From positions 249,459,827 through 249,523,826 of the forward strand of contig CP136064.1 in NCBI GenBank assembly GCA_032622095.1: a stretch of 64,000 nucleotides of DNA, read 5' to 3'. Shown piece by piece: positions 2,136 through 59,606 of this stretch; position 1 is the stretch's first letter; each line of letters opens with the position of its first letter. The notes below the pieces were generated by a model. It was not told the origin of the DNA. It saw only the letters and a program-made list of their open reading frames with translations, and searched no databases. Position numbers and translations under genes: made by a program. The DNA comes from Siphonodentalium dalli (Eukaryota > Mollusca > Scaphopoda > Gadilida > Siphonodentaliidae).

Positions 2136-3419
2136 GAAATCGAAAAGAAGTCGAAATTGTCACATACTAATTTCAACTTTTTGTCATAATATCAATATGT
2201 ATGGATTGGTCGAAACGGTACATAAGCCATCTGTTAGTTCCAACATAGGTCGTCGCCTTCTGGGAGGATGAAAACCCACAATAATCGCGATGTGGCATTT
2301 CGAAATCCATTCTCCACTAAGCGCCCATAATGGCCGTAACCGTATATGGGTGTGCCGAATAGTCATATTATGACTTCCAATAACCAAAACAACAGTACCT
2401 GAGCTTATTCTGATTTGCCACATTCAGCATTATCTGGATCAGCATCCGTCTCGTCACATTAATCTATCTCGCTCACACCAACACAGTGTTCTACACTCCC
2501 TGGTAGAAGGGTCCCACTAATCGGAATGTTTCAAACAACACATATGCCGGTGTCAAGCTCATGTGTTTGTCTCGAAAGCTGGGAATTCTTATCCTTATTC
2601 TTGGCGAGCTTCATTCGTGGTAGCTTATGGTATAATTCAGATGCTGCATATGGGATCTGAGCGTCATCTTGCGTGATAAACTACAAAGGTATGCGGTCGA
2701 TACGTATACTAGCTTTCAGAAGGACCTCTCTATCTGCGTATTTTTCAGATTTGGTTATCTAATGTGGATAACAAACTGTACATCTGGTGATCTTCCCATC
2801 CAGCCACTTCTCAAGATATGGTTCACCAATTCACATATTCACGTACTGACGTAGCCGGACAACTTCTGTATATGGCTTCGAATGTTGAAAGCCTAACATT
2901 TGACAGATGCCTTTCTGCTAAGGCGTAGAAGACCATAATGCATAATATACCCACACGTCTTGACCATGATCATAAGAACAGTCCTGGTGGCGGCCATCAA
3001 TCGTCTCACCATACAGATCCAATCAGATAATAACAATACATGCGGTGCTAGTTTGTGGGCATGTGTCATGATAGTGGAAATGAAATTGGACCATGGCTGC
3101 CCCACCCCTTCTTTGGGTATGTTTTAGATTCAGACATGATCTCATGTGGCTTTGCTTTCCTTGTATGCTAAGATTGCATCTTTCAATCCGCTTGGGTGCC
3201 GTTCTTAATCAACGAACCAGACGTGTACCATTGGCTACTACTATATAAGCCCCACCAGACTGGGATGTAGTCTTCAGGACGATGCATTTGATAGTTACCG
3301 AGAATATGTCATACTCACGCTTGGTGGTGGTCGGTATTGTTCAAGAAAATACAATGCCATCATAACACAAGGGTGAAATGTTCAACGCGAAGAACATCGA
3401 GAGGAATGTTACTTTGATG

Positions 3420-3590: not shown

Positions 3591-4783
3591 CCATCGAGAC
3601 TATAAATTGTTTTTTAAACACACAGTGAAATAAATGCACCACAGTTCCTGACATTTTCTTGAATAATACCGCCCACATACTGACACTAACCCTGAGAGAT
3701 CATAACAACAATGCATACCTTCATTCCATAAAGACATTATCCTTTAGCCCATCCGACTGGCTAGGATAGTATTATCCAGACAAAAGTATACGTCTGGTCA
3801 TGTTGATACAGAACGGCCTTGAAACGGATGTGGAAATACAATCTTACCACACCAAAAAGACCAACACGCATGACATTCTATATTGAAACATGCACCTGGT
3901 GTAGGGTTGTATACCGTGGCCCATTTAATTATTATTGCGCATGTCCACAAACTAGCACCGCGAGTATTGTTCTTCTCTGCTGGGAGCTATTCGACGAGAC
4001 GACTGCGGGACGTCACAGTTTGCTTAGGATCATGGTCAAGAAGTGTGGGTAGTCGGTACATTATGGTATTCTCCTTAGCAGATAGGCATCTGTCCAAGGG
4101 AATGAGACAGCTAGCTACCTCCGAAACACTGCCGAAGTTGTCCACGTATGCCAATACGTTCGCTATGTTTGTGAGTTGAACCATCTATTGAGAAGTGACT
4201 AGTTAACTGGGAAGTTCGCCAGGTATACATGTCATTATCCCCACGGGGTATGAGAAAGACATACATAGAGATGACCTTCTGTAAGCTTGTATACTTATCG
4301 ACCATATGCCTTTCTAGTTCAAGATAACGAACAAATCCCATATTTAGCAAGCATCTAAAATCTTAAGCCAGACACCGGGAAATTAATTGTTTGAAAGGTT
4401 ATGATTAAAGGGACCCTTCTCACAGGAAGTGTTGAATACTTTGTCGGTGTGAGCGACCTAGATTTATCAGGCAAAGAAATGGAAACTGGTCCAGATCATT
4501 AAGGACGTGGCAAATCAGAATCTTTTACCAGGTAATTGTTCTAATATGGCTATTCGGCGCACCTACGGTTACGGCCATTATCGGCGCAAAGTGTAAAATG
4601 GATTTCGAAATGACACATCGCTATATTAAGTGTGGGTTTTCGTACTTCCAGAAGGACACGATCAATGTTATGCGTTTTGATACGTTTTAAGTTGAACTAA
4701 TATATGGTTTCGTCCATACATATCGATACTATGACAAAAAGTTGAAAATTGTATGTGAATATATCGATTTCTTTTCAATTTCT

Positions 4784-5840
4784 GGCCTCCAGTTTAGCTG
4801 CCATCTTGACCTTGAGTATCAATTGCCAAACTCAAATGAATACTTCATACCAATATTCCATATCAACATGTGATGGTGGGTAGAATTCGCGAAACAATAA
4901 CGCCCATCGTAAGAAAGTAAAGGAATGTAGGCGTGTTTTCAAATATCGGTCGCCATTTTGGCCGCCATCTTATATTTGGAAAACCATTTATTGCATGGGA
5001 TGAAAGGTAATTACTTCATCTCAGTATTTACAACTCAACTGTCAGCATGTGTGGAGTTTTCTCGACAATAATGCCCAATGATGTGAACATGAGGGAATTT
5101 CGGTGATTTTTCAAAAATTGTCCGCCATTGTGGGCGCCATTTTGGATTTGGGAAACTTTATTTGGATGCAACATAAGGACAGTTATTCGACTAAGTGTTC
5201 CCAACTCACAATAGTAAGCAGGTGTGGAGTTGTCGTGACAATAACTCTCACTGATGTTAAAAATTTTCTATTTCTGGTGGCCATTTTGGCCGCCATCTTG
5301 GATTTGGGTGAATATTCCTCAACTCAGGTATAAGAGGAATCATAGCCCGAGTATCTCCTGCACATATATAATCATGGCTGGAGTAATAATAGCAATAACA
5401 CTCATTGATTCGAAACAGACATTGCGTTATTAGCGTCGTTTTGGCTTTGACCGGATTATACCGGCAATTGGGAAAACGTGATATCGGACACAAATATCCG
5501 CCAAGGAATGAATATTATGGTCCCTCTGTGTTCGTCAATGACTCTTCTAAACGATAAATGTATAAAATCGCGTCAAGGTGCCAATATTTTCCCACAGAGA
5601 CAAACGAAAGGTGGTGAAATGTCCGAAAAATAGCAAATTTTCACATTTCGGCGGCCATCTTGGCCGCCATATTGGATTTGTGTGTCGGATTTTTGGCTAA
5701 TTTGTAAGGGGTGTATATTACCATAACGAATCGAACGGAAAACAAGACCGCATGTGACATCATCTTTACTATAACGGCGATCAAAGAGACCTGGTGCATA
5801 TACAAAAAATGGCCGCCATGATGGACGCCATCTTGTCTGG
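4784..5840 (-). repeat. Foldback right arm: mirror array of ATGGCGGCC units
   Basis: Reverse-complement counterparts of the left-arm cores lie at about 4795, 4955, 5125, 5280, 5650 and 5812 (seen on + as 'gccattttggccgccatctt'). Spacing mirrors the left arm, so the tandem array existed before, or is copied together with, the inversion. Confidence 0.7.
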
Positions 5841-5966
5841 AGTCTCTGCGGCCACTTTTTTTTCTTGTTAACAAGTGAATAAAATTAGAGGAGACCTTAA
5901 GGAAGAAAATTAGTGGGGTGAAGTTGAGTCCTGGGGGTGCAGAGGTTTACCAATATCTCCTGGACT

Positions 5967-6371
5967 ATATGTATACATTTTAGAAATGTAACTTGTTGAG
6001 AATGTACAACAAACGCATGACTCTTCCCTGAACTGATATAAACTGTACATCATGTAACATCACACTGTTTCACTCTCAATATTTAGTTTAACTTGTAAAT
6101 ATATCTATAGATATCACTTGCGATTGAGATGGTATACCGTATAAATTAGCCTTTCTAAATCTTACTTCATTTAAACATGCACACCACAAGTATATTGATG
6201 AGAGCTGCTGAACGAAAACAAACTGATGCCTTTAATTTTTTGCCTGGGCGATGATGGGAAGACGGCCATAAGGTCACATTACCGCCCGGATTCTGTGTGT
6301 ACACTGAATTTGTATTTCTATTGTTTACCTTGTATTTTATATGTACATGCTTTATCCAATAAATTATTCAT
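5967..6371. other. Intergenic, possible 3' tail of an old repeat
   Basis: No gene is recognised. The segment ending near 6365 contains 'ccaataaattattcattcattc', a polyadenylation-like signal followed by a short simple tail. This resembles the 3' end of a retroposon or transcript running on +, but no reverse-transcriptase remnant is visible upstream. Confidence 0.3.
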
Positions 6372-7259: not shown

Positions 7260-7547
7260 TGGCAGTCTAGGGTTTTGGTTAGGAGACGTGCGTTTTTTCG
7301 TGTATACCTTCAGGTTGGAATATGTGTGTATACGTTTTACAAGTATAAAGGCAACATCTAACATTTTACCATGATTAATTGCTTTACATGTAAATAATAA
7401 TGTCGGGCTAGCTTGGCCGCCCGCATGTGAATATAATGTCTCTTCAGTCCTATCTTCCGTAATGCATGCACTCATTAACATAACCCTCTTATTTTCCCTT
7501 TGGAACTTTGGTATAAAATCAGGAGACTATTTTTCTCTCATTTAAAG

Positions 7548-8680
7548 ATGCATATTAATTTGCCCGTGCGACGTGACCTTGGCCTTGAAATCGGGTCATT
7601 TCAAGGTCAAACGCCCGAATATCACGGGATTTCGTTGAAACTTGGTATGTGGGGGTACTTTCGTATGGGGAGTCTCATAAGCATATTCATTTGCCCGTGC
7701 GACGTGACCTTGACTTTGAAATCGGGTCAATTCAAGGTCAAATCGCCAATTTTGATGGTATTTCGACGAAATTTTATACATAGGGTTACTTTTGTCCACT
7801 GGGTGTTTTGGACGGGTCAAATCGTGACCCCGACCTGACCTTGACCTTCAAAATGATCAATTCAAGGTCAAATTGGGTAAAACCGGATGGATTTCGACGG
7901 GTACTTATGTCGGGTACTTTTGTTCGGGCAGTGTTTTGGACGGGTCAAATCGTGACCCCACTTGACATTGGCCTTCAAAATAGACAATTCAAGGTCAAAG
8001 CCCGGACGAAGTCGGGTCACCTTCTAGTATATATATATATATCTATTATATATTTTGGAAGATATGTGTGTCTGTGTGTGTGTCTGTCTGTAATCGATGG
8101 ACTCAAAAACGGCCGAGCCGATTTCGATGAAACTTGGTATATGGGGGTATTTACGGCCGCGGAGTGACATGGGCCTATTAATTTGCCCGTGCGACGTAAC
8201 CTTGACCTTTAAATCGGGTAATTTCAAGGTCAAACGCCCGAATATCACGGGATTTCGATGAAATTTGGTATGTGGGGGTACCTTCGGCCGGGGAGTGGCA
8301 TAAACATATTAATTTGCCCGTGCGACGTGACCTTGAAATCGGGTCAATTCAAGGTCAAATCGCGAATTTTGATGGGATTTCGACGAAATTTGATACGTGG
8401 GGTTACTTTTGTCCACTGAGTGTTTTGGACGGGTCGAGTCGTGACCCCGACCTGACCTTGACCTTTAAAATGATCAATTCAAGGTCAAATCGGGTAAACC
8501 CGGATGGATTTCGACGGGTACTTTTGTCCGGGCAGTGTTTTGGACTGGTCAAATCGTGACCCCACTTGACCTTGACCTTCAAAATGGACAATTCAAGGTC
8601 AAAGCCCGGACGAAGTCGGGTCACCTTCTAGTATATATATATATATATATATATATATCTCATATATATTGGCACAGGTT
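7548..8680 (+). repeat. 'caaggtcaaa' tandem block, duplicated about 635 bp apart
   Basis: Units contain 'tttgcccgtgcgacgtgacc', 'ttcaaggtcaaa', 'gatttcg.cgaaattt.gta' and 'ttttggacgggtcaaatcgt'. The segment 7550-8030 is repeated with few changes at 8185-8640; each half ends in 'gaagtcgggtcaccttctagtatatat' followed by a TA microsatellite. An 'aacggccgagccgatttcgatgaaact' segment lies between the halves at 8100-8135. This type of repeat with a CTAG-type end near a TA run recalls the non-coding body of Helitron-like elements, but no Rep/helicase or diagnostic hairpin was identified, so the class is open. The open frames across it come from this repetition. Confidence 0.65.
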
Positions 8681-15510: not shown

Positions 15511-15812
15511 GATAGGATTTTAAAAGATTCGCTGTCTGGGAATTATGAAACTGATTTGAAAGCAAATAGTTGATGATTATAAGCTACATCCCTAAATAGT
15601 AATTACCTGTACTTACTCAGAATAACGGCATAACAAGTTCCTGGAATATATCACATCCGAACCCCTTTGGGTCAAATGTGGACCTGCATGATTAAAATGG
15701 GTCAGTCAGTGTGATGATAGTGATGATTGCTATGCAAATGTGGTGATATGGTATACCATAGCTGCCTTATGTCAAGCTCAGGCAATATATCCGGTTAATA
15801 TATCAATATATG

Positions 15813-17092
15813 TGGTTAGTTAGTCAATAGACGCAGCCTCTTTGCAATTATATTTGGCTACTTTGTCAATATTGGAGGTTAGTTAGTCAATATATGCAGC
15901 TAATTTGTCAATATATGTGGTTAGTTAAGTCAATATATGCCGCTACGTTTCCAATATATGTGGTTAGTTGGTCAATACTTTGTCCATTAATTTGGTTAGT
16001 TAGTCAATATATGTAGCAAATTAGTCAATATATTCGGTTAGTTAGTCATTATATGCAGTTTCTTTGTCAATAAATGTGGTAAGTTAGTCAATATATACAT
16101 CTATTTTGCCAAAATGTGCAATTGCATTGACAATATATCCAGCTACTTTATCAATATATATAGATATGATTAGTTAGTCATTGTGTGCAACTGCTTAGTC
16201 AATATATGTGGTTAGTTAGTCATTATATGCAACTACTTAGTAAATATTTGTGGTCAGATAGTCATTATATGCATCTACATTGTCAATATCTGCGGTTAGT
16301 TAGTCATTATATGCAGCTACTTAGACAAAGTAGATGCATATATTGACTAACTAACCGCATTTATTGACTAAGTATCTACACATAATGACTAACTAACCAC
16401 ACCTATTGACTAAGTAGCTGCATATAATGACCAACTAACCATATATATTGATAAATTAGCTGCATATATTGTCAATGCAATTGCACATTTTGACAAAGTA
16501 GATGTATATATTGACTAACTGACCACATTTATTGACAAAGAAACTGCATATAATGACTAACTAGCCACATATATTGACTAATTATCTACACATAATGACT
16601 AACTAACCACATTTATTGACTAAGTAGCTGCATATAATGACTAAATAACTGCATATATTGACTAAGTAGCTGCATATAATGACTAACTAACCGCATATAT
16701 TGACTAAGTAGCTGCAAATAATGACTAACTGACCACATATATTGACTAAGTAGCTGCATATAATGACTAACTGACACATATATTGACTAAGTAACTGCAT
16801 ATAATGACTAACTAACCACATATATTGACTAACTAACCGCATACATGTATATTGACTAATTTGCTACATATATTGACTAACTAACCAAATTAATGGCCAA
16901 AATATTGACCAACTAACCACATGTATTGGAAACATAGCTGCATATATTTGCAAAGTAGCGGCATATATTGACTTAACTAACCACATATATTGACAAATTA
17001 TCTGCATATATGACTAACTAACCTCCAATATTGACAAAGTAGCCAAATATAATTGCAAAGAGGCTGCATCTATTGACTAACTAACCACATAT
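15813..17092. repeat. Palindromic array of 40-bp units (ggttagttagtcaatatatg)
   Basis: From 15813 to about 16322 the two alternating half-units 'ggttagttagtcaatatatg' and 'tagtcattatatgcagctac' repeat in one orientation. From 16322 to 17092 their reverse complements run the other way (ttgactaactaaccacatat, aatgactaactaaccgcata). The outermost units mirror each other in their private variants, so the array is one large palindrome and not two independent arrays. The right side is longer (about 770 against 510 bp), consistent with later gain of units. No coding potential. Confidence 0.85.
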
Positions 17093-17097
17093 TATAA

Positions 17098-17241
17098 GTT
17101 ATTGTGGTTGATTGACGGTAACATGGTGTGACATTGACGGCTTGGAGCCTATGTTCAACCGAGTCGCGCTAGCGACGAGGTTGAACATAGGCTCCAAGCC
17201 GTCAATGTCACACCATGTTACCGTCAATCAACCACAATAAC
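17098..17241. repeat. Perfect 63-bp inverted repeat hairpin
   Basis: Arms 17098-17160 and 17179-17241 are exact reverse complements, with an 18-base loop containing 'tcgcgctagcga'. The lack of mismatches makes it much younger, or better homogenised, than the surrounding array. It separates the tandem array from the recombinase relic. Confidence 0.9.
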
Positions 17242-17478
17242 GTATATGTTCCATTGACAGCCCTTTAATTTTGTGGTGACAGCTAGAATCAGTTTCATAC
17301 TGGAACCGATGCGTCATATTATAGCATTCTCATGTTTACGCTATAAACCCGTTGCGCCCCCCAGTGAATGACGTCACGAAAAAATCAATAATGTAGTTTT
17401 ATAAATAGAACAAGAAAATCACAGGAAGTTTTGAATGATCGTAGCACAATTTGTAAGTGGATTTCTCTTGATTTCTCA

Positions 17479-18150
17479 TCAATTATGTGGAGGACTGCTG
17501 AAGTGAATGTTGTGAATGGTACATCCACTAAACATTGGAGCTCCCATGTAATGTCCAGTGCTGTCGAGGGACATTTGGACGTTTTCAATGGATAGGCCTA
17601 CTTTGTCCAAAACACCACCGCCATTTCCTGCAAATTTTTCAATTTGTTGTGTTGTTGTTGAACATTTTTGCTGTATTTGCCGAGTTATTTGGGTTCCCGA
17701 CATTACTGGTCGAACTTGAGGAATGTTCATGTCATCATGAGGCGGACACGCAGATCTCGGATTTACGGGCGGATTGTATGGCACATGTGAGTCACGTGAA
17801 ACACTACCACCGATGGCCTCACCCATCGCCATTTTCTCCCTGTCAGAAACTCGTTGATACACAGAGAGGGACGAGACTGACTTATGCCCTGTTACAGCCA
17901 TAATTTGTGATGGGCTGAAATTTACCCTGCCCAGAATTGTAACTCCTGTAACACGGATACTGTGATTGGTGTAACGTTTGGATATGAGGATTTTTTCGCT
18001 CAGGTTTGGCATGAAAAGACGGAGTTTATCACGCCCTATACTGGCTTATTTTGGTACCATATTTCACCAGGATAATCCTCGAAACTGTCTTTAGGATACT
18101 GCCAGAGACGTATTTTGTTACTAAATGCAGACGACGTAATTTGTTTACAT
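17479..18150 (-). pseudogene. Tyrosine recombinase (Crypton/DIRS-like), C-terminal fragment
   Basis: The main open stretch covers 18039-17482, with stop at 17479-17481. Counted from its internal ATG at 18012, it has HSIR (His17, Arg20), the GHKS box (His43) and VYQR (Tyr52). This is the HxxR...H...Y order of the catalytic C-terminal domain of tyrosine recombinases and fits the eukaryotic Crypton/DIRS YR domain. The tail after about residue 60 is low-complexity, Ser/Gly/Pro-rich and not conserved in such proteins. Upstream, 'WYQNKPV' lies in another frame and the junction near 18040 needs one missing base, so there is a frameshift. Recognisable sequence fades near 18150, so the N-terminal half, including the first catalytic Arg, is absent. 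It lies within the 15511-18830 foldback. It is not expected to encode an active enzyme. Confidence 0.75.
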
Positions 18151-18830
18151 CACCTATACACAGGTGCGAATACTAACACCCCCCCCCCCAAGAGTGAGTA
18201 GAACCACCCAACTTGACAAACGATGAACACTACAATTTGGATTAATCCATTAAAGTTAGGGACCACTTAGTGTAAGAAAAGACGTTCATTTCTATAATCA
18301 ATGATTTTATAGTGAACCTATTACAGTCCACAGATCGATCGCCGTCAATTGTTATCTGAATTGTCAAACAAATTATTTGCAACACGGTCTTACACGTTTA
18401 CGTGCCGGTAACGTTATTCCCCCAGATGGAGCCTCTTGCTCTATGCAAATTAGATGACGTCACCCGCCAACATAAGAACCTTTGCACGCGCGAAAGCCGT
18501 AAACATGGGATATGTTGCGCGAGCGTTAACCAATTGAATGCCGAGGATTTAGCTGGAAATGGAACATATTGATATATTAACCGGATATAGTGCCTGAGCT
18601 TGACATAAGGCAGCTATGGCGTACCATATCACCGCATTTGCATAGCAATCCTCACTATTATCACACTGCCTGACCCATTTTAATCATGCAAGTCTACATT
18701 TTACCCAAAGGGGTTCGGATGTGATATATTCCAGGAACTTGTTATGCCGTTATTCTGAGTAAGTACATCAACTATTTGCTTTCAAATCAGTTTCATAATT
18801 CCCAGACAGCGAATCTTTTAAAATCATATT

Positions 18831-26794: not shown

Positions 26795-28110
26795 CTGGTT
26801 CAATGGGGTTCAGTTAGATGGTCTGGTTCAAGTTAATTGCGGGGGGGGGGGGGGTCGTTATGATGCAGTTGGATGGTCTGGTTCAAATTCATTGGTAGGG
26901 TGGCGTTACGATGCAGTTTGATGGTCTGGTTCAAATTCATTGGTGGGGGGGGGGGGGGGGGCGTTACGATGCAGTATCATGGTCTGGTTCAAATTCATTG
27001 GTGGTGGGGGGTGTTACGATGCAGTTTGATGGTCTGTTTCAAATTCATTGGTAGGGGTGGCGTTACGATGCAGTATCATGGTCTGGTTCAAATTCATTGG
27101 TGGTGGGGGGGGGCGTTACGATGCAGTTTGATGGTCTGGTTCAAATTCATTGGTGGGGGGGGGGGGTACGATGCAATTGGATGGTCTGTTCAAGTTCAAT
27201 GGGGGGGGGGGGCGTTACGAAGTAGTTGGATGGTCTGGTTCATTGGCGGGGGTGGGGGGGGGGGCGTTACGATGCAGTTGGATGGTCTGGTTCAAGTTCA
27301 TTGGTAGGGTGGCGTTACGATACAGTATCATGGTCTGGTTCAAATTCATTGGTGGGGGGAGGGGGTTACGATGCAGTTTGATGGTCTGGTTCAAATTCAT
27401 TGGTGGGGGGGGGGGGGGGTTACGATGCAATTGGATGGTCTGTTCAAGTTCAATGGGGGGGGGGCGTTACGATGCAGTTGGATGGTCTGGTTCATTGGCG
27501 GGGGGGGGGGCGTTACGATGCAGTTGGATGGTCTGGTTCAAATTCATTGGCGGGGGGAGGGGGGTTACGATGCAGTTGGATGGTCTGGTTCAAATTCATT
27601 GGCGGGGGGAGGGGGTTACGATGCAGTTTGATGGTCTGGTTCAAATTCATTGGTGGGGGGGGGGGGGCGTTACGATGCAGTTTGCAGTTGGATGGTCTGT
27701 TTCAAGTTCATTGGCGGGGGGGGGGGGGGTTACGATGCAGTTGGTTGGTCTGGTTCAAATTCATGGGGGGTGGCGTTACGAACGATGCAGTTGGGTGGTC
27801 TGGTTCAAATTCATTGGCGGGGGGGGGGGGGCGTTACGATGCAGTTGGATGGTCTGGTTCAAGATCAAAGGGAGCGTTACGATGCAGTTGGATGGTCGGG
27901 TTCAAATTCATTGGCGGGGGGGGGGGGTGTTACAATCCAGTTGGATGGTCTGGTTCATTGGTGGGAGGGCTCTACGATGCAGTTGGATGGTCTGGTTCAA
28001 GTTCATTGGCGGGGCGGGGGCGTTACGATGCAGTTGGATGGTCTGTTTCAAATTATTTGGCGGGGGGGGGGGGGCGTTACGATGCAGTTGGAAATTTCAA
28101 GGTATACACC
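26795..28110 (+). repeat. G-tract minisatellite, 50-55-bp unit, about 25 copies
   Basis: The unit is 'cgttacgatgcagttggatg', 'gtctggttcaa.ttcattgg' and a pure G tract of roughly 7 to 19 bases that varies from copy to copy. All G tracts are on the plus strand. Single-base length changes of the tract shift the reading frame, producing long overlapping open frames in all three plus frames (up to 360 residues) that are artefacts of repetition. Closely spaced G tracts can form G-quadruplexes. The repeat begins abruptly after 'ttcaagttaattgcgggg' and ends at 'gatgcagttggaaatttcaa'. Confidence 0.9.
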
Positions 28111-28530
28111 CTCCCAACGAGGACTCTCTAGTCACGTCCCTAACTCTACAATGGCCTGCCAAAGCTTCATTGTATACAGGTATAAATTGCCAATTAAAGG
28201 AGCACTCCAAAAGCGATACAAGATATTATTAATTCATCAAGCGGATTCAGTTATTACAGTATTGGGTATAATTATCCCACAGAAACCACAGACAGGGTGG
28301 CTCATGGATCAATATATAGGGTGTTGATACCCCCGGTCGCGCTAAACCGCTACTCTTGATTAACCGCCTTTAAGTTTGTCAACTGGACCGGTATCTAAAC
28401 CGGTAACTGACCACGCAGATGATTCCTATCAAAGAAGGAGCCAGCGGCAAGGTCCTCGTATGTGCCCATGTTGCCCCAGTGTCCAGAATACTCCCCGACG
28501 ACACAGGAAGGGTTTGTGTAAGTGATTTCC
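28111..28530. other. Intergenic
   Basis: No gene recognised; open frames entering from the minisatellite end here. Confidence 0.4.
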
Positions 28531-40130: not shown

Positions 40131-40960
40131 AGATATTCTCTATATCTTCGATTGTTTTACCGTATATTATTACATTAGACTGTAGTAAATGATGGGGAAT
40201 GTGCATTGTGTACATAGAGTGTCTCTCATATCATATAGCATAATAGAGTCCCCCCTTCCCACAACAACAAAAAATGCAAATTTCTATTTTAAAAATATAA
40301 TCGACAAATCATTTATTTCGCGAATGTCGGAAAGATGGTCTATTTCTTCCTATAATAAGTTTGCTATAGTTTTCTGGGTTTTAAATCATAAAAATGAATC
40401 GAAGACCCCTGTTCGGAAACGCTTCTATCAATTAACGTTTATTTTATTTCGAATTTCTGGCATAAAATACAGTCAATTTGGGACATTTTACGGCTCGCGT
40501 TCGTTAGGAGCATGCGGGATAACTGTATCTGAAAATTCTAAAAATAGTAACGAAAAATGATCCCAATTGATTACCCCATTATATAAGATTGAAGTGTTTC
40601 CGGACAGGTGTCATCGACTCATATTTATTATTTTATACCCCGGAAACTATATAAAACGTATTTAGGAAGAGATAGACAATCTTTAAACAGTCGCCAATGT
40701 GAATCCGATAGGTGACTTGCGGACACTCTGAATCTATGCATATACGTGTATATATGCAATATGTGATACATCTTAACATTGTCATTTTGTTCTGTTTTAA
40801 TTTGTTAAATTGGTCTTCTTCAAATGTCGTTTTATTGTTACTTGCCTTTGCCACAGGGGTATATATATCATTGAATTGTATACATGTGCTTATATGTAGT
40901 TGAGGCGATAATGGTGGTGGTGTTGAAAATTCAAATTGACCAAGAGCGCCTCCAGGTGTT
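40131..40960. other. Intergenic
   Basis: A 123-codon open frame at 40189-40560 shows no domain and has AT-driven composition; not called as a gene. Otherwise nothing recognised. Confidence 0.4.
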
Positions 40961-43900
40961 AGTATAGTCGTTGTGGTGATTTTGGAGGGTGAACGTAGAA
41001 AAAATTGTTATAAAGCCAGGTTTGGTGTCATTTTGACCGGGAATGTTTGGACAACAATATATCCAAAATCCGCTAAAATCCGCTTTGGGGAAATGTTTTT
41101 ACAGTCATTTGAATACAGGACGTTTCGTCATTATGCCACAAAATTACGTAATGCAGATAAATACAAACAGTTTACTTGTGTTAGCTCGCAAACCATTAAT
41201 GCGTGGCAAGTTCGCATGGATAATTGTCATATGATGATACGACAACATGACCCACCACAGTGTAAGCCATATTTGCCCCCACTAATAAAGAGCGTTCAGT
41301 AAAATACCATACATAAAGAGCGTTTTGTGAGCGTTGGAGGAAAACACCACAATAAGCCATGTGTGCGCTCCAGTGATAAAGCACGTTATCATAGAACGAC
41401 ATAACGCACTTCACTGCAGTTGTGCAAACCACAAGTCGCATTGTTCAGTTGTTTCTAATATATCACTTCGATTTGTATCTCTAATTGTGAAAGTTGTAAA
41501 AGTAGCTTTTATAGGAGTCGGACACATGTTTCCTGTTGAAACCTAACGGTGACAACGTACGCAGGAGATTTGTTTTGGTTAATTTGATTGCTTCATTCGT
41601 TGTTCTCGTGTTCTGTTTTATTATTGCATATTTATTCTCGCTCTATTTCATTTCTCATTGTTGATAATGGCCGACAATCGTACCGTCGGCGATGAGCTTA
41701 ACCCAGCTGAAGACCTCTGTGTCATATGTGGTTTTGGTTTTGTTAATGATCCACCGGTAAAGGTGGGGGCAAAAGGTATTGTGACTCTCATAAGCTGTTG
41801 TGGACAACGGGGCCGACCTAATTTGAAACAATACCTCACCGCGCGCAGCCAGGTGACGCCTGTCGACAAAGTGCTGGTGCATGCAGGTTGCCGGAGAGAT
41901 TTTACCGACACAAAAAGAAAGACACAAGATAATTTGGTGGTTTCAGAAGCGAAAAGACTACGATCTGATGCAACGCCAATCAATATAGCAGAAGACTGCT
42001 TAATATGTGGAGTTCATACAAGCACTGATGTTAGACACCCAGATAGGTCCACACCAATGAGCCAAGTAGAGACCATCCCTATCAGGGACAAGCTCTTACA
42101 ATGCTGTGCGCATAGACAGGATGCTTTAGCATATGACGTGGAGAAGCGCATTCAAGGGCGCATTGACTTGGTAGCAGCATAGGCCGTTTACCACCACGGA
42201 TATCTGACTCGATTCTTGCAAGGCAAGGATGTGAGTCAACCCGAGACAGGAAAAGCAGGTCGAAGATCAGATCAGGGTATGAAACATTGGTTCGAAACGA
42301 TTTGTAATTGGTTCGAGACAGAAGCTGGCGCTGAATTAACACTGTTAGTGAGTTACATTCCAGAATGGTTGAATTCGCAGGCGAGTCAGAGGTTTATACT
42401 ATTAAAAGTTTGAAAGGTAACTTAGAGGAATACTATGCAGAATTCATTTTCTTCGCCGAGGTTAAGGGACGGAAGGATGTCGTTTGTTTTCGAAATATGG
42501 CCAAATTCATTATAAATGAAAAGTGGTACACTGATAAAAACAGGATTTAGATGAGGAGGCAGACAGGATTGTCTTGACTGCAGCAAGAATAATAAAAGCA
42601 CAAATAAGGGAGGCCGATTACAGTCGCGAATCTTATCCACCCAGTGACGCTATATCTATTATTAGTCAGGGGCGAAATTCGATCCCGAATCACCTGCAAA
42701 GCCTACTAAAGATTTTAATTCCGTCCGATGTCAAGCAGAATAGCATCGGTCATTCCATTGTACATGGTGCTCGTCCACATTCGGTTATAACACCAACGCT
42801 GTTTGGACTGGGTGTAGAAATGGACGATGTGTTTGGTTCCAAATGGCTAGTGAACGAGTTATCCCGGTTGGGATTCTCTGTTACCCACGATGAAGTTGAG
42901 AGGTACAAGCAATCCGTCATTCAGACCGAAACGCCCAGTCAAATACTAACTGACTATGCCTTCGTTCAGTGGGTGGCAGATAATGTCGACCACAACATAG
43001 CAACTCTAGATGGCAAGGGGACCTTCCATGGAATGGGGATAGTTGCAATATCTGCACCCATGAATCAATCAGCACTGAACATGAAATCGCGTGTAATCAT
43101 GAGACAAAAGCGGTTGAGGGTTGATGAGCTCGTGAAAAACAAAGGAGTGTCCATCTCCCAATATGTTGATGTTATTGGCAAAGGAATTTCCAATATCAAA
43201 CTGAAATCTATTCTTCATTTTGCCACACCATATACCCTCCCATCTGACCTCAGCACAGATCTGCTGTGGCACTCAGCATGCTTTTTCAGTAAGAGTGAAA
43301 AACCTAGCGCGAACTGGTCAGGTTTCATGCAAAGTGCTTACTCGCAGGACGACACTCTGACCGCTGAGAAATCAGATGTTCTGTTCCTTCCCATCATCGA
43401 TCTGAATCCGTCAGATGACGATTGCATTTATTCTACACTCATTTATGTTGAGGAACAGGCACGTAGATTGAACATCCACACGCCATGTATCACTTTCGAC
43501 CAGCCGTTGTGGCTCAAGGCTGTAAACATAATAAGTTCTAAGTCGATGAACATTGTGTGTAGGCTGGGCGGATTTCACACTGTAGTGAGCTTCATGGGGA
43601 GTATCGGTTCGATGATGAAGGGGTCGGGGTTAGAAGAAGCTTTGGAGAAAGTGTACGGTCAGAACACAGTGACCCATATGATATCTGGAAAGGCAGTGTC
43701 GAGGGCATTGCGTGGTTACTACCTAGTTGAGGCTGCGCTTTTCAAAAAGTTGATAGCTGAAGTTGTCCCAGTTGAAAAGGACGGCAGTTCTGCGGACATC
43801 GAATCGGCAATGGAACAAGATGACATAGAAGCCTCACACATGCAACATGGTGATGTACACGTTGTTGGTGAAAACACGATGGGCAAAATGCACCAGAGTG

Positions 43901-45015
43901 AAATGGGCAGAATACAAAACTGCGTGAAGAGATTGAAATTGGTGTTGTTCCTATATCCGCGGCTGCGGACTCAACTGAACTGTTGAAGGTCGAGCAATGT
44001 ATCAATTGTTATAAATCACTGCTTGTCAAAGAATCCCTCACAGCAAAATTGTGGGTGCAGTATATGGATTATGTGCAAACCCTAAAGAACTTCATCCGTG
44101 CTGAGCGAACAGGGGATTGGAATCTGCATATTGTAACATTAGGGAAGATGCTGAACCTCTTCGCAGCCACTAGTCATATAAATTACGCAAAGAGCTGCAG
44201 ACTATATCTCCAAATGATGCTAGAATTACCAGTGAAGCATCATTGTGTACATCAGTGTTTGAGGAACATGGCTTCCATGTAGCCCGTAGAAGTAGCAGAT
44301 TCTGGGCGGGGTTATCAACCGATCTTATACACTGAATAATGACGTATTGAATGCTGAGGGGTGGGGTTGGGAACGACGTGGTGAGGATCTTTCCCCAGTC
44401 ACGACTGACCAGAATGCAGCCCAAGACGAATTGCTCAAGTTTGTACGGTGCAAGTGTAAGATGTCACAAAAAAACCATGTGACACCAATGTGTGTACATG
44501 TCGCAAACATGGTCTGAAATGTGTTATCGCTTGTGGAGATTGTCGTGGAGAGGGCTGCGTGAATTCAGAAGAGGTTCTGATAGATGACGAGGGTGAGGTC
44601 TGAGTATAAATGATATATTTGACACACAAGTGTCGAAATCATGAAGTATTTCTCATTCTGGTCATCACTGGCTGATTTCGATCAACAAAATAAACGAAAG
44701 AAATAATTGTCATTTTAGCGGCCATTTTGGTTGCCATCTTTAGACTCTGTGACTGATAGTTGGTCATTGTGACTCCCGTGAAATCCTTTGTCAAACTCAT
44801 TACCCCTACCTCACAATGGACTAATGCTGATTGGGGAATATTTATAATCGTTAGCCGCCATATTGGACGCCATCTTGAATCCTGAATTTTCCCCAAGGCG
44901 GATTTTAGCGGATTTTGGATATGTTATTCCTGATACTTTTGCGCGCAAAATGAGACCAAAACCAGCTTTATAACAATTTTTTCCAGGTTCAACCTCCCGA
45001 CGACCACACTATGTG
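40961..45015. mobile_element. 4-kb TIR-bounded DNA transposon carrying a decayed orphan gene
   Basis: The left end (40961-41096) and right end (44885-45015) are inverted repeats of about 130 bp. Shared phrases include 'aaaaaattgttataaagc', 'atatccaaaatccgctaaaa' and 'tccgc.ttgggga'. The reading frame at 41667-44603 fills the interior on the plus strand. This is the layout of an autonomous cut-and-paste transposon, with the enclosed protein as the candidate transposase. The exact termini and a target duplication could not be fixed by eye. Subterminal repeats on the right (44700-44880) contain 'ggccattttggttgccatct' and 'gccgccatattggacgccat', which echo the cores of the 921-5966 foldback. Confidence 0.7.
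41667..44603 (+). pseudogene. Decayed transposon-borne protein with HGMG motif and cysteine-rich C terminus
   Basis: The start is the ATG at 41667 (ataATGGCC). Homologous frames chain along the strand: 41667-42364, 42365-42548, 42549-43982, 43983-44332 and 44360-44603. Joins require frame changes near 42364, 42548, 43982 and 44335-44475, and there is an in-frame TAG at 42180-42182, so the gene is dead. In order it has Cys pairs at the N terminus (LCVICGFGF, then CLICG), a central block WVADNVDHNIATLDGKGTFH-GMG at 42970-43040, the segment LIPSDVKQNSIGHSIVHGAR near 42720, a conserved tail block (FIRAERTGDWNLHIVTLGKM, near 44090), and a Cys-rich end (RCKCK, then CTCRKHGLKC, CGDCRGEGC) at 44449-44570 resembling CXC-type DNA-binding folds. 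I recall large invertebrate families of this type but cannot name the superfamily or its catalytic residues. Confidence 0.7.
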
Positions 45016-45084
45016 GCATAATACGCCTTTTACCTGTTACAAAGTGAATTTCAGAAGGATAACTTGAGTGACAACCGATGTAAC

Positions 45085-57181: not shown

Positions 57182-59606
57182 CCTCAAAAGTGCAGGTCCG
57201 TGAAGTTGGATCGAAGTTCGAAGTTCGAAATTCGGTGGAGATTCGCGTGAAGTTAGATTGAAGTTCGAAATTCGGTGGAGATTCGACCCCCACTTTTATT
57301 TGCCTCAAATGCATTGTTGTGTTCCAATTCGTGTTACTCTGCTCGAATTTTGGGTCAAAAGTTATTTTTTTCACTTTTTCTGAGATATTGCTGGACTTGG
57401 AAAATTTAGCCACGGCGCTGGACTTAGAAAATTTCGCCTTCAATATCAAGGCGCCGAAGGGAAGTGGCATTGTTTATGGCTGGATTGAGCTGAAATTTGG
57501 TATGTTTGATACTTTCCATAAGAGAATCAAGCAAACTAACGCTCAGCTTCGAGAAATTACTCGATCTATAGGTTTGAATTTCAATCCGGGCGAATTTCGA
57601 TCTGGATTGAAGTTCGAAATTCAGATTGAAATTCGACCCCCACTTTTGTTTGCCTTAAATGCATTGTTGTGTTCCAATTCGTGCTCCCCTGCTCGAATTT
57701 TGGGTCTGAGATACTGATGGACTCAGGGGGGGGGGGGGGGGTCGGAAATTTTTTCAGGCACGTATGATCATTTTAATTTTTTCCGGCCTCGGGGGACCCA
57801 CCCACCCAATTTCTTCCGTTTCCGGCCTTTTTTTCCAGGCAATTTTGGACACCCACCCTTTTTTTTCCGTTTCAGGAATTTTTTTCCGGTCAGTTTTGGA
57901 TACCCACCCCCCTAAATTTGAGAAAATTATCAACTGAGCAACCAAATAGCTGATTATCCTGCATTATCATAATTTATTGCGCGATATTTGAATAGAACAG
58001 TGCATAATGAGATAACGATACTATTTGAATTTATCATATAAGTGTCATTAATCAAGAAATGTGTCAACATAATCACTTTTCTAGGGATATATAGGCAGAG
58101 TGCCAAAGTTTTTATTAACATTCATTTTCATAATATATAGTCACATGATCTAGTCACATAATCACATTTGAGTATTCTACAGAATACATGGCACCGGTAC
58201 AACAAATTTCAGATTATTTGATATTTTGATATTTGCTATGTGATATACAGTAATGCCCTAATTAATTGACTCCATAACCACAGCAAAATAATGGGTAATT
58301 TTTCAGGATTTAGTTGGAAATATGGCTTGTTGTCATTCACTTATGCCGAAGGGAAGTGGCATTGTTTATGGCTGGATTGAGCTGAAATTTGGTATGTTTG
58401 ATACTTTCCATAAGAGAATCAAGCAAACTAACGCTCAGCTTCGAGAAATTACTCGATCTATAGGTTTGAATTTCAATCTGAATTTCAATCTGGGCGAATT
58501 TCGATCTGGATTGAAGTTCGAAATTCAGATTGAAATTCGACCCCCACTTTTTTTTGTCTCAAATGCATTGTTGTGTTCCAATTCGTGCTCCCCTGCTCGA
58601 ATTTTGTGTCAAAAGTGATTTTTTTCACTTTTTCTGAGATACTGCTGGACTTGGAAAATTTAGCCACGACGCTGGACATAGAAAATTTGGCCTTCAATAT
58701 TAAGGTGCCGAAGGGAAGTGGAATTGTTTATGGCTGGATTGAGCTGAAATTTGGCATGTTTGATACTTTCCATAAGAGAATCAAGCAAACTAACGCTCAG
58801 CTTCGAGAAACTACTCGATCTATAGGTTTGAATTTCAATCTGAATTTCGAACTTCAATCCAGATCGAAATTCGCCCAGATTAAAATTCAGATTGAAATTC
58901 AAACCTATAGATCGAGTAATTTCTCGAAGCTGAGCGTTAGTTTGCTTGATTCTCTTATGGAAAGAATCAAACATACCAAATTTCAGCTCAATCCAGCCAT
59001 AAACAATGCCACTTCCCTCCGGCACCATAATATTGAAGGCCAAATTTTCCAAGTCCAGCGCCGTGGCTAAATTTTCCAAGTCCAGCAGTATCTCAGAAAA
59101 AGTGAAAAAAAATCACTTTTGACCCAAAATTCGAGCAGGGGAGCACGAATTGGAACACAACAATGCACTTGAGGCAAACAAAAGTGGGGGTCGAATTTCA
59201 ATCTGAATTTCGAACTTCAATCCAGATCGAAATTCGCCCAGATTGAAATTCAAACCTATAGATCGAGTAATTTCTCGAAGCTGAGCGTTAGTTTGCTTGA
59301 TTCTCTTATGGAAAGTATCAAACATACCAAATTTCAGCTCAATCCAGCCATAAATAATGCCACTTCCCTTCGGCACCTTAATATTGAAGGCCAAATTTTC
59401 TAAGTCCAGCGCCGTGGCTAAATTTTCCAAGTCCAGCAGTATCTCAGAAAAAGTGAAAAAAAATCACTTTTGACCCAAAATTCGAGCAGGGGAGCACGAA
59501 TTGGAACACAACAATGCATTTGAGGCAAACAAAAGTGGGGGTCGAATCTCCACCGAATTTCGAACTTCGAACTTCGATCCAACTTCACGGACCCCAAAAG
59601 TGCTCG
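57182..59606. repeat. 2.4-kb palindrome of four units, two in each orientation
   Basis: Units on plus at 57182-57715 and 58345-58850, and on minus at 58852-59110 and 59113-59606. The outer ends mirror each other ('gtccgtgaagttggatcgaa' against 'ttcgatccaacttcacggac'), and the centre lies near 58852, where two units meet head to head. Each unit holds 'ggctggattgagctgaaatt' and 'gagaatcaagcaaactaacg' and ends in 'gaaattcgacccccact'. In every unit the same frame is open and would read YGWIELKFGMFDTFHKRIKQ after LENLA. The frame has no known domain and continues through repeat junctions, so coding is unproven. Confidence 0.75.
57716..58344. mobile_element. Insertion in the first half of the palindrome
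   Basis: Breaks the symmetry between units 1 and 2; the corresponding stretch is absent on the right side. It starts with a G16 run and blocks of 'cacccaccc' and 'tttttttccgtttc' (three units of about 55 bp, 57722-57920). It ends with 98 bp (58248-58345) that match 36396-36490 in inverted orientation. Probably one or two nested elements, with loss of some palindrome sequence. Confidence 0.55.

Follow-up and report, generated by a model that had tools for sequence, protein, structure and literature searches.

Does a decayed gene lying between two inverted repeats in the scaphopod Siphonodentalium dalli encode the transposase of the transposon that once carried it? The gene in question lies in a 64,000-nt stretch of contig CP136064.1 (GenBank assembly GCA_032622095.1, positions 249,459,827 to 249,523,826, forward strand), here called the window, and all positions given below are counted from its first base. 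Between positions 40961 and 45015 of the window lies a pair of inverted repeats, ~110-136 bp each, with one decayed gene between them; the product of this gene carries an HGMG motif and a cysteine-rich tail. On balance, we favor reading this locus as a dead class II (cut-and-paste type) DNA transposon of ~4.0 kb, bounded by terminal inverted repeats (TIRs) and encoding its own transposase. The HGMG/cysteine-rich protein is presumably of a large invertebrate type that is multicopy and abundant in animals.

Inverted repeats and the gene between them

The first-pass annotation of this DNA described inverted repeats of about 130 bp on both sides of a decayed gene, and these repeats are real. Their ungapped core covers 110 nt with 20 mismatches (82% identity) and leaves 3794 nt between the arms, and a gapped alignment extends the arms to approximately the outer boundaries listed in Table 1. 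A looser alignment scoring ran to 40927-41310, an extension that we distrust. In a comparison of the 600-bp flanks, the local alignment score was 122, far above the values obtained with 1000 dinucleotide shuffles (mean 21.8, maximum 39), and the match between the arms is thus not a chance sequence similarity. Sequence identity between the arms is complete over two stretches, ATATCCAAAATCCGCTAAAATCCGC (25 bases) and GAAAAAATTGTTATAAAGC (19 bases), the former containing a tandem decamer that appears as two copies of AAAATCCGCT in the left arm. These tandem decamers may be a protein-binding site. Terminal inverted repeats around a coding region, as expected of a TIR-type class II transposon, are found here in the form of the 110-nt core.

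Only one coding region is enclosed by the arms. It spans ~2.9 kb of the plus strand and is broken, as the earlier annotation had it: in addition to a single in-frame stop, its pieces lie in frames 0, 2, 1, 0, 2, 1, and 0, which amounts to six frame changes in our own reading of the frames, made without relatives for guidance. The longest open stretch comprises 482 codons (42538-43983), compared to a maximum of 229 in 1000 dinucleotide shuffles of the gene region. No second coding region between the arms was recognized in the list of open reading frames (ORFs).

Just to the left of the element lies a separate unit resembling a miniature inverted-repeat transposable element (MITE; 40331-40684), with arms at 40331-40429 and 40587-40684 that are 82% identical over 99 columns and are dissimilar to the repeats of the element.

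Table 1. Coordinates of the inverted repeats and of the recognizable parts of the enclosed gene (window numbering)
Feature	Position	Strand	Remarks
Left inverted repeat	40961..41096	+	ungapped core 40984-41093
Tandem AAAATCCGCT decamer, left repeat	41065..41084	+	inside the 25-base stretch common to both arms
Decayed gene, candidate transposase	41667..44603	+	one in-frame stop, six frame changes
N-terminal piece	41667..42182	+	CxxC ... HxxC type Cys/His clusters (by eye); terminates at the in-frame TAG 42180-42182
Longest open piece	42538..43986	+	holds VADNVD, TLDGKGTFHGMG, TFDQPLW, and LGGFHT
VADNVD	42973-42990	+	within longest open piece
TLDGKGTFHGMG	43003-43038	+	within longest open piece; HGMG motif at 43027-43038
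TFDQPLW	43492-43512	+	within longest open piece
LGGFHT	43564-43581	+	within longest open piece
Short piece VFEEHGFHVARRSSRFWAGLSTDLIH	44255..44332	+	frame 2; missing from the program-made ORF list
Cys-rich tail	44478..44558	+	one frame, seven Cys, CXC-like spacing
Right inverted repeat	44885..45015	-	ungapped core 44888-44997
Matching tandem unit, right repeat	44898..44916	-	GCGGATTTT x2, ten bases apart, on the + strand

A candidate transposase

The gene product is plausibly the transposase of the element itself. This identification, which had been proposed as probable, is no more than plausible: a Cys/His-containing N terminus, a center with candidate acidic residues, and a Cys-rich tail, in this order, suit a transposase, but no family, structure, or relative confirms it. 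If, as we infer, the element was mobile and the protein an active enzyme, the transposon ends would have been recognized via the inverted repeats, with the Cys/His N terminus and the Cys-rich tail binding DNA, perhaps at the tandem decamers. The center of the protein would then have cut and joined the ends by means of a DDE/D-type, RNase H-like active site. Picked by eye, the candidate for the first catalytic acid is the first Asp of VADNVD or that of TLDG, and the candidate for the second is the Asp of TFDQ. After insertion, this copy would have been inactivated by the stop and several frameshifts. The N-terminal Cys/His clusters had no zinc-finger match in Pfam.

The tail was thought to be a DNA-binding domain of the CXC type, and its cysteine spacing (C-x4-C-x-C-x6-C-x3-C-x2-C-x4-C) is indeed CXC-like. 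A loosened CXC pattern had its sole match in the six frames of the window at the tail (44478) and none in 200 mononucleotide shuffles; as this pattern was composed with the tail in view, the result shows only that such a spacing is not due to chance. The spacing is close to the consensus of tesmin/TSO1-type CXC domains, and V-N follows the tail much as C-x-N does in those domains; the last two spacings of the tail exceed those of the consensus. At E <= 10, the tail matched no CXC family in Pfam, and the only Cys-rich family listed for it was CSRNP_N (expectation values (E) of 1.7 and 1.2, far under its cut-off). When the joined tail was compared to the sequences in the PDB, the best match had an E of 0.1, which we take as chance.

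Evidence against a transposon and alternative explanations

Several results concerning the repeats, the target site, the age of the locus, and the protein weigh against a transposon with its own transposase, starting with the fact that a single copy of the element was seen. The window is rich in interspersed repeats, and its self-comparison yielded 23 inverted matches whose arms are separated by 1-8 kb; we grouped these into ten places including the element. In a scan of the window at 4-kb spacing, 7 of 198 positions reached the score of 122; these fall in three places, namely the element itself (2 positions) and two others at 901-1201 and 7501-8101. Random sampling at the same spacing, with the left flank of the element excluded, gave a score of at least 122 for 72 of 2941 segment pairs. 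Because inverted pairs are this frequent, a lone inverted pair is no proof of a transposon here. The abundance of such pairs is the first point in favor of the view that two short interspersed repeats of ~110-136 bp (of the MITE or short interspersed element type) flank an unrelated decayed multicopy gene in opposite orientation. We nonetheless consider this unlikely. No third arm copy of more than 15 bases is among the matches listed for the 64-kb window at E <= 10, as is expected of element ends and not of a high-copy short repeat (the right arm also pairs weakly with 43987-44015 inside the gene, at 72% over 29 nt). Furthermore, the coding region is tightly enclosed by the arms, and except for one 9-nt pair in the left arm, the arms have no inverted repeat of their own.

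The target site and the apparent ages of arms and gene also favor unrelated repeats. Boundary pairs from 40955-40995 and 44985-45025 were scanned for duplications of 5-11 bp without mismatch and of 8-11 bp with one mismatch, beginning at 5 bp because chance matches abound at lengths of 2-4. The target duplication expected of a transposon by the first-pass annotation did not turn up at this copy, the ends of which have diverged: none of at least 5 bp was in register with the ends in the scanned boundary pairs, and the sole flanking direct repeat, the exact 5-mer TGTGG, does not line up with the ends as aligned. The arm cores differ by 18%, or ~9% per arm on the assumption of identical arms at the time of insertion, in which case the arms are more diverged than the few stops in the gene suggest. 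In simulations of 965 codons from the stop-free pieces, 2 of 300 runs ended with no more than two stops when 8% of positions were changed, and 0 of 300 did so at 10%; since the pieces were chosen for being stop-free, the observed stop count is biased low, making this comparison a hint and not a test. Three explanations offer themselves: repeats that were never perfect, a gene that remained under selection for longer, or separate histories of the arms and the gene, of which the arms appear the older.

The protein itself was assigned to no family. The 482-codon piece had no match in Pfam at E <= 10, and the other pieces of the gene (E <= 1 and E <= 10) had only matches below the cut-offs and none to a transposase family. 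NCBIfam searches with three pieces returned nothing for the longest and the first piece; the third had a match that we take as chance (E 0.074). Among the matches under the cut-offs, NRDE-2 at 43902-44279 (E 0.011, 15.2 bits, cut-off 34), RRM_9 (E 0.035), and ADD_DNMT3 (E 0.29) were not taken up. For the 481-aa piece, the best match among PDB sequences had an E of 0.78, again taken as chance, and tblastn against plasmids and phages gave none at E <= 1. In IMG/VR, a single-protein scan with the 481-aa piece led to 5 pattern-matching stretches, none of which was confirmed, and there were no matches to three protein-motif patterns or, exactly, to 23 bases of the arm. One pattern had no match in GTDB contigs, and the 2 Flavobacterium contigs matching a second pattern were rejected as chance matches: stops interrupt the frame that matched, and in tblastn searches with the pieces no E was below 0.15. 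As these collections contain viruses, plasmids, and prokaryotes, missing relatives are nearly uninformative for an animal protein.

Structure prediction provided little more. AlphaFold2, run without relatives, gave models of very low confidence, with a mean predicted local distance difference test score (pLDDT) of 31.5 for 482 aa and 33.3 for 321 aa. In the 321-aa model, a strand-helix-strand-helix-strand order is drawn for residues 181-243; the Asp of TFDQ (residue 221) falls directly past the middle strand, and the pLDDT is 49-53 for residues 191-240, compared to 39 and 35 in the adjacent blocks. This order of strands and helices would be compatible with the latter half of an RNase H-like core, which we regard as a weak lead only. 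Of the 881 Foldseek matches to the 321-aa model at E <= 10, not one reached E <= 0.001. The best three of the 881 are archaeal Pelota chains (E 0.097-0.16), and many others among the best 50 are small-subunit ribosomal proteins, alongside methyltransferases, dehalogenases, glycosyltransferases, and polymerase subunits. Both the middle domain of Pelota and ribosomal uS11 contain RNase H-like motifs. With template modeling scores of 0.10-0.16 on the query, however, the likeness to Pelota and uS11 is not evidence.

That the protein matched no DDE family would also suit an accessory protein of a transposon that has lost its transposase in this copy or relies on that of another element; extra proteins of this kind are described as usual in Kolobok and Academ elements (PMC9587614, PMC10045372). 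We think this quite improbable, as no second coding region was recognized between the arms and the protein is large and composed of multiple parts, like transposases. A host gene or pseudogene, captured by or residing in an inverted-repeat element that is non-autonomous or unrelated to it, is highly improbable: although no search gave the protein a function, its pieces span 2.9 kb without obvious intron gaps, like many transposon genes, and the protein type is presumably a multicopy one in animals.

Comparison with known transposon superfamilies

In Repbase, eukaryotic DNA transposons are grouped into 23 or 24 superfamilies, the majority with a DDD/E transposase (PMC10045372, PMC12730594); the superfamilies are listed in Repbase Update (PMC4455052). 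We file the transposon candidate under none of the superfamilies with which it was compared, Academ being compared by description and Pfam only.

Academ proteins are large and have Cys-rich parts. Academ elements are described as DDD/E DNA transposons of animals that have been amplified in bivalves (PMC10294476), which makes them the first family for comparison. AcademX is reported to encode a nuclease and to produce duplications of 3-4 bp, and AcademH to encode a helicase and to produce duplications of 9-10 bp (PMC10045372). At the locus studied here, the scanned pieces of the decayed gene have no Pfam match to the XPG-type nuclease or the helicase of Academ, and no duplication of 8-11 bp (at most one mismatch) was found at the ends, which have diverged.

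Kolobok elements are described as animal DNA transposons that have TIRs, like the locus, and that combine a DDD/E transposase with accessory proteins and zinc-finger motifs (PMC9587614); where Kolobok has zinc-finger motifs, the locus encodes Cys/His clusters, as seen by eye. Kolobok duplicates TTAA, whereas this decayed copy has no TTAA at 40940-41000 or 44985-45040. The KolX protein of Kolobok was set aside on the basis of its description, as it is said to resemble the C-terminal part of P2X7 (PMC9587614). Kolobok, hAT, P, MuDR, and Dada transposases have been described as sharing a C/DxxH signature between the second D and the last E (PMC9587614); the candidate motif in the one decayed copy available here is GGFH, which differs from that signature. 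The order of an Asp, a second Asp, and a His-containing motif ~20 residues later is, by eye, similar to that in hAT, P, MuDR, and Dada. In the 482-aa piece, ~170 residues separate the first two candidate Asp (residues 148 and 321), and Pfam gave no match to any of these families. A conceivable distant link to Pfam DUF6589, for which neither a paper nor a Pfam match was found, was not used as evidence.

We suggest only tentatively, and with considerable doubt, that the HGMG/CXC-tail protein is the transposase of an animal DNA transposon superfamily that has not yet been described as such. Such a superfamily would be marked by TIRs of ~110-136 bp that contain a tandem decamer and by a protein with Cys/His clusters at the N terminus, a CXC-like tail, and an RNase H-like core in which a long insertion separates the first two acids. 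Our results neither support nor exclude a new superfamily, and among the titles and abstracts listed for a few terms in the open-licence literature, none linked the HGMG protein type with a transposon. If other copies in the host genome share the ends of this one, a presumably abundant class of unnamed animal proteins could be refiled as transposases; this would improve repeat masking, lower inflated gene counts, and provide a new enzyme that could be tested for DNA transposition. Under the superfamily reading, many "uncharacterized" animal genes of the HGMG type would be transposase genes. Should the ends not be common to the copies, the locus would be an ordinary pseudogene between two repeats.

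Other features of the window

Searches with ARAGORN and Rfam (gathering scores) found nothing in the window. A second inverted-repeat pair, at 15512-15809 and 18566-18829 (298 columns, 85% identity), encloses a tandem array (15780-17092) and, on the minus strand, a fragment of a tyrosine recombinase (17482-18045; Pfam Phage_integrase, E 4e-4, 20.6 bits, cut-off 27.1). The region 15512-18829 is perhaps a decayed tyrosine-recombinase element of a Crypton- or DIRS-like kind. It also contains a perfect palindrome with 63-base arms (17098-17160 and 17179-17241) around an 18-base spacer. A further inverted pair, 913-2554 and 4371-5974, is ~1.65 kb long and 86% alike, and encloses another inverted match (2642-3063 and 3940-4349).

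Outside these repeats, an open frame of 451 codons at 34900-36252 matches glycosyltransferase 61 (Pfam PF04577, E 1.4e-13). The tandem array at 26811-28092 matches itself at many offsets of at least 103 bases, and at this array the plus strand is open over 366 codons (27132-28229). Finally, direct and inverted repeats cluster at 57195-59593, some of them 97% alike (57260-57706 and 59121-59568), and this similarity suggests a recent rearrangement or element.

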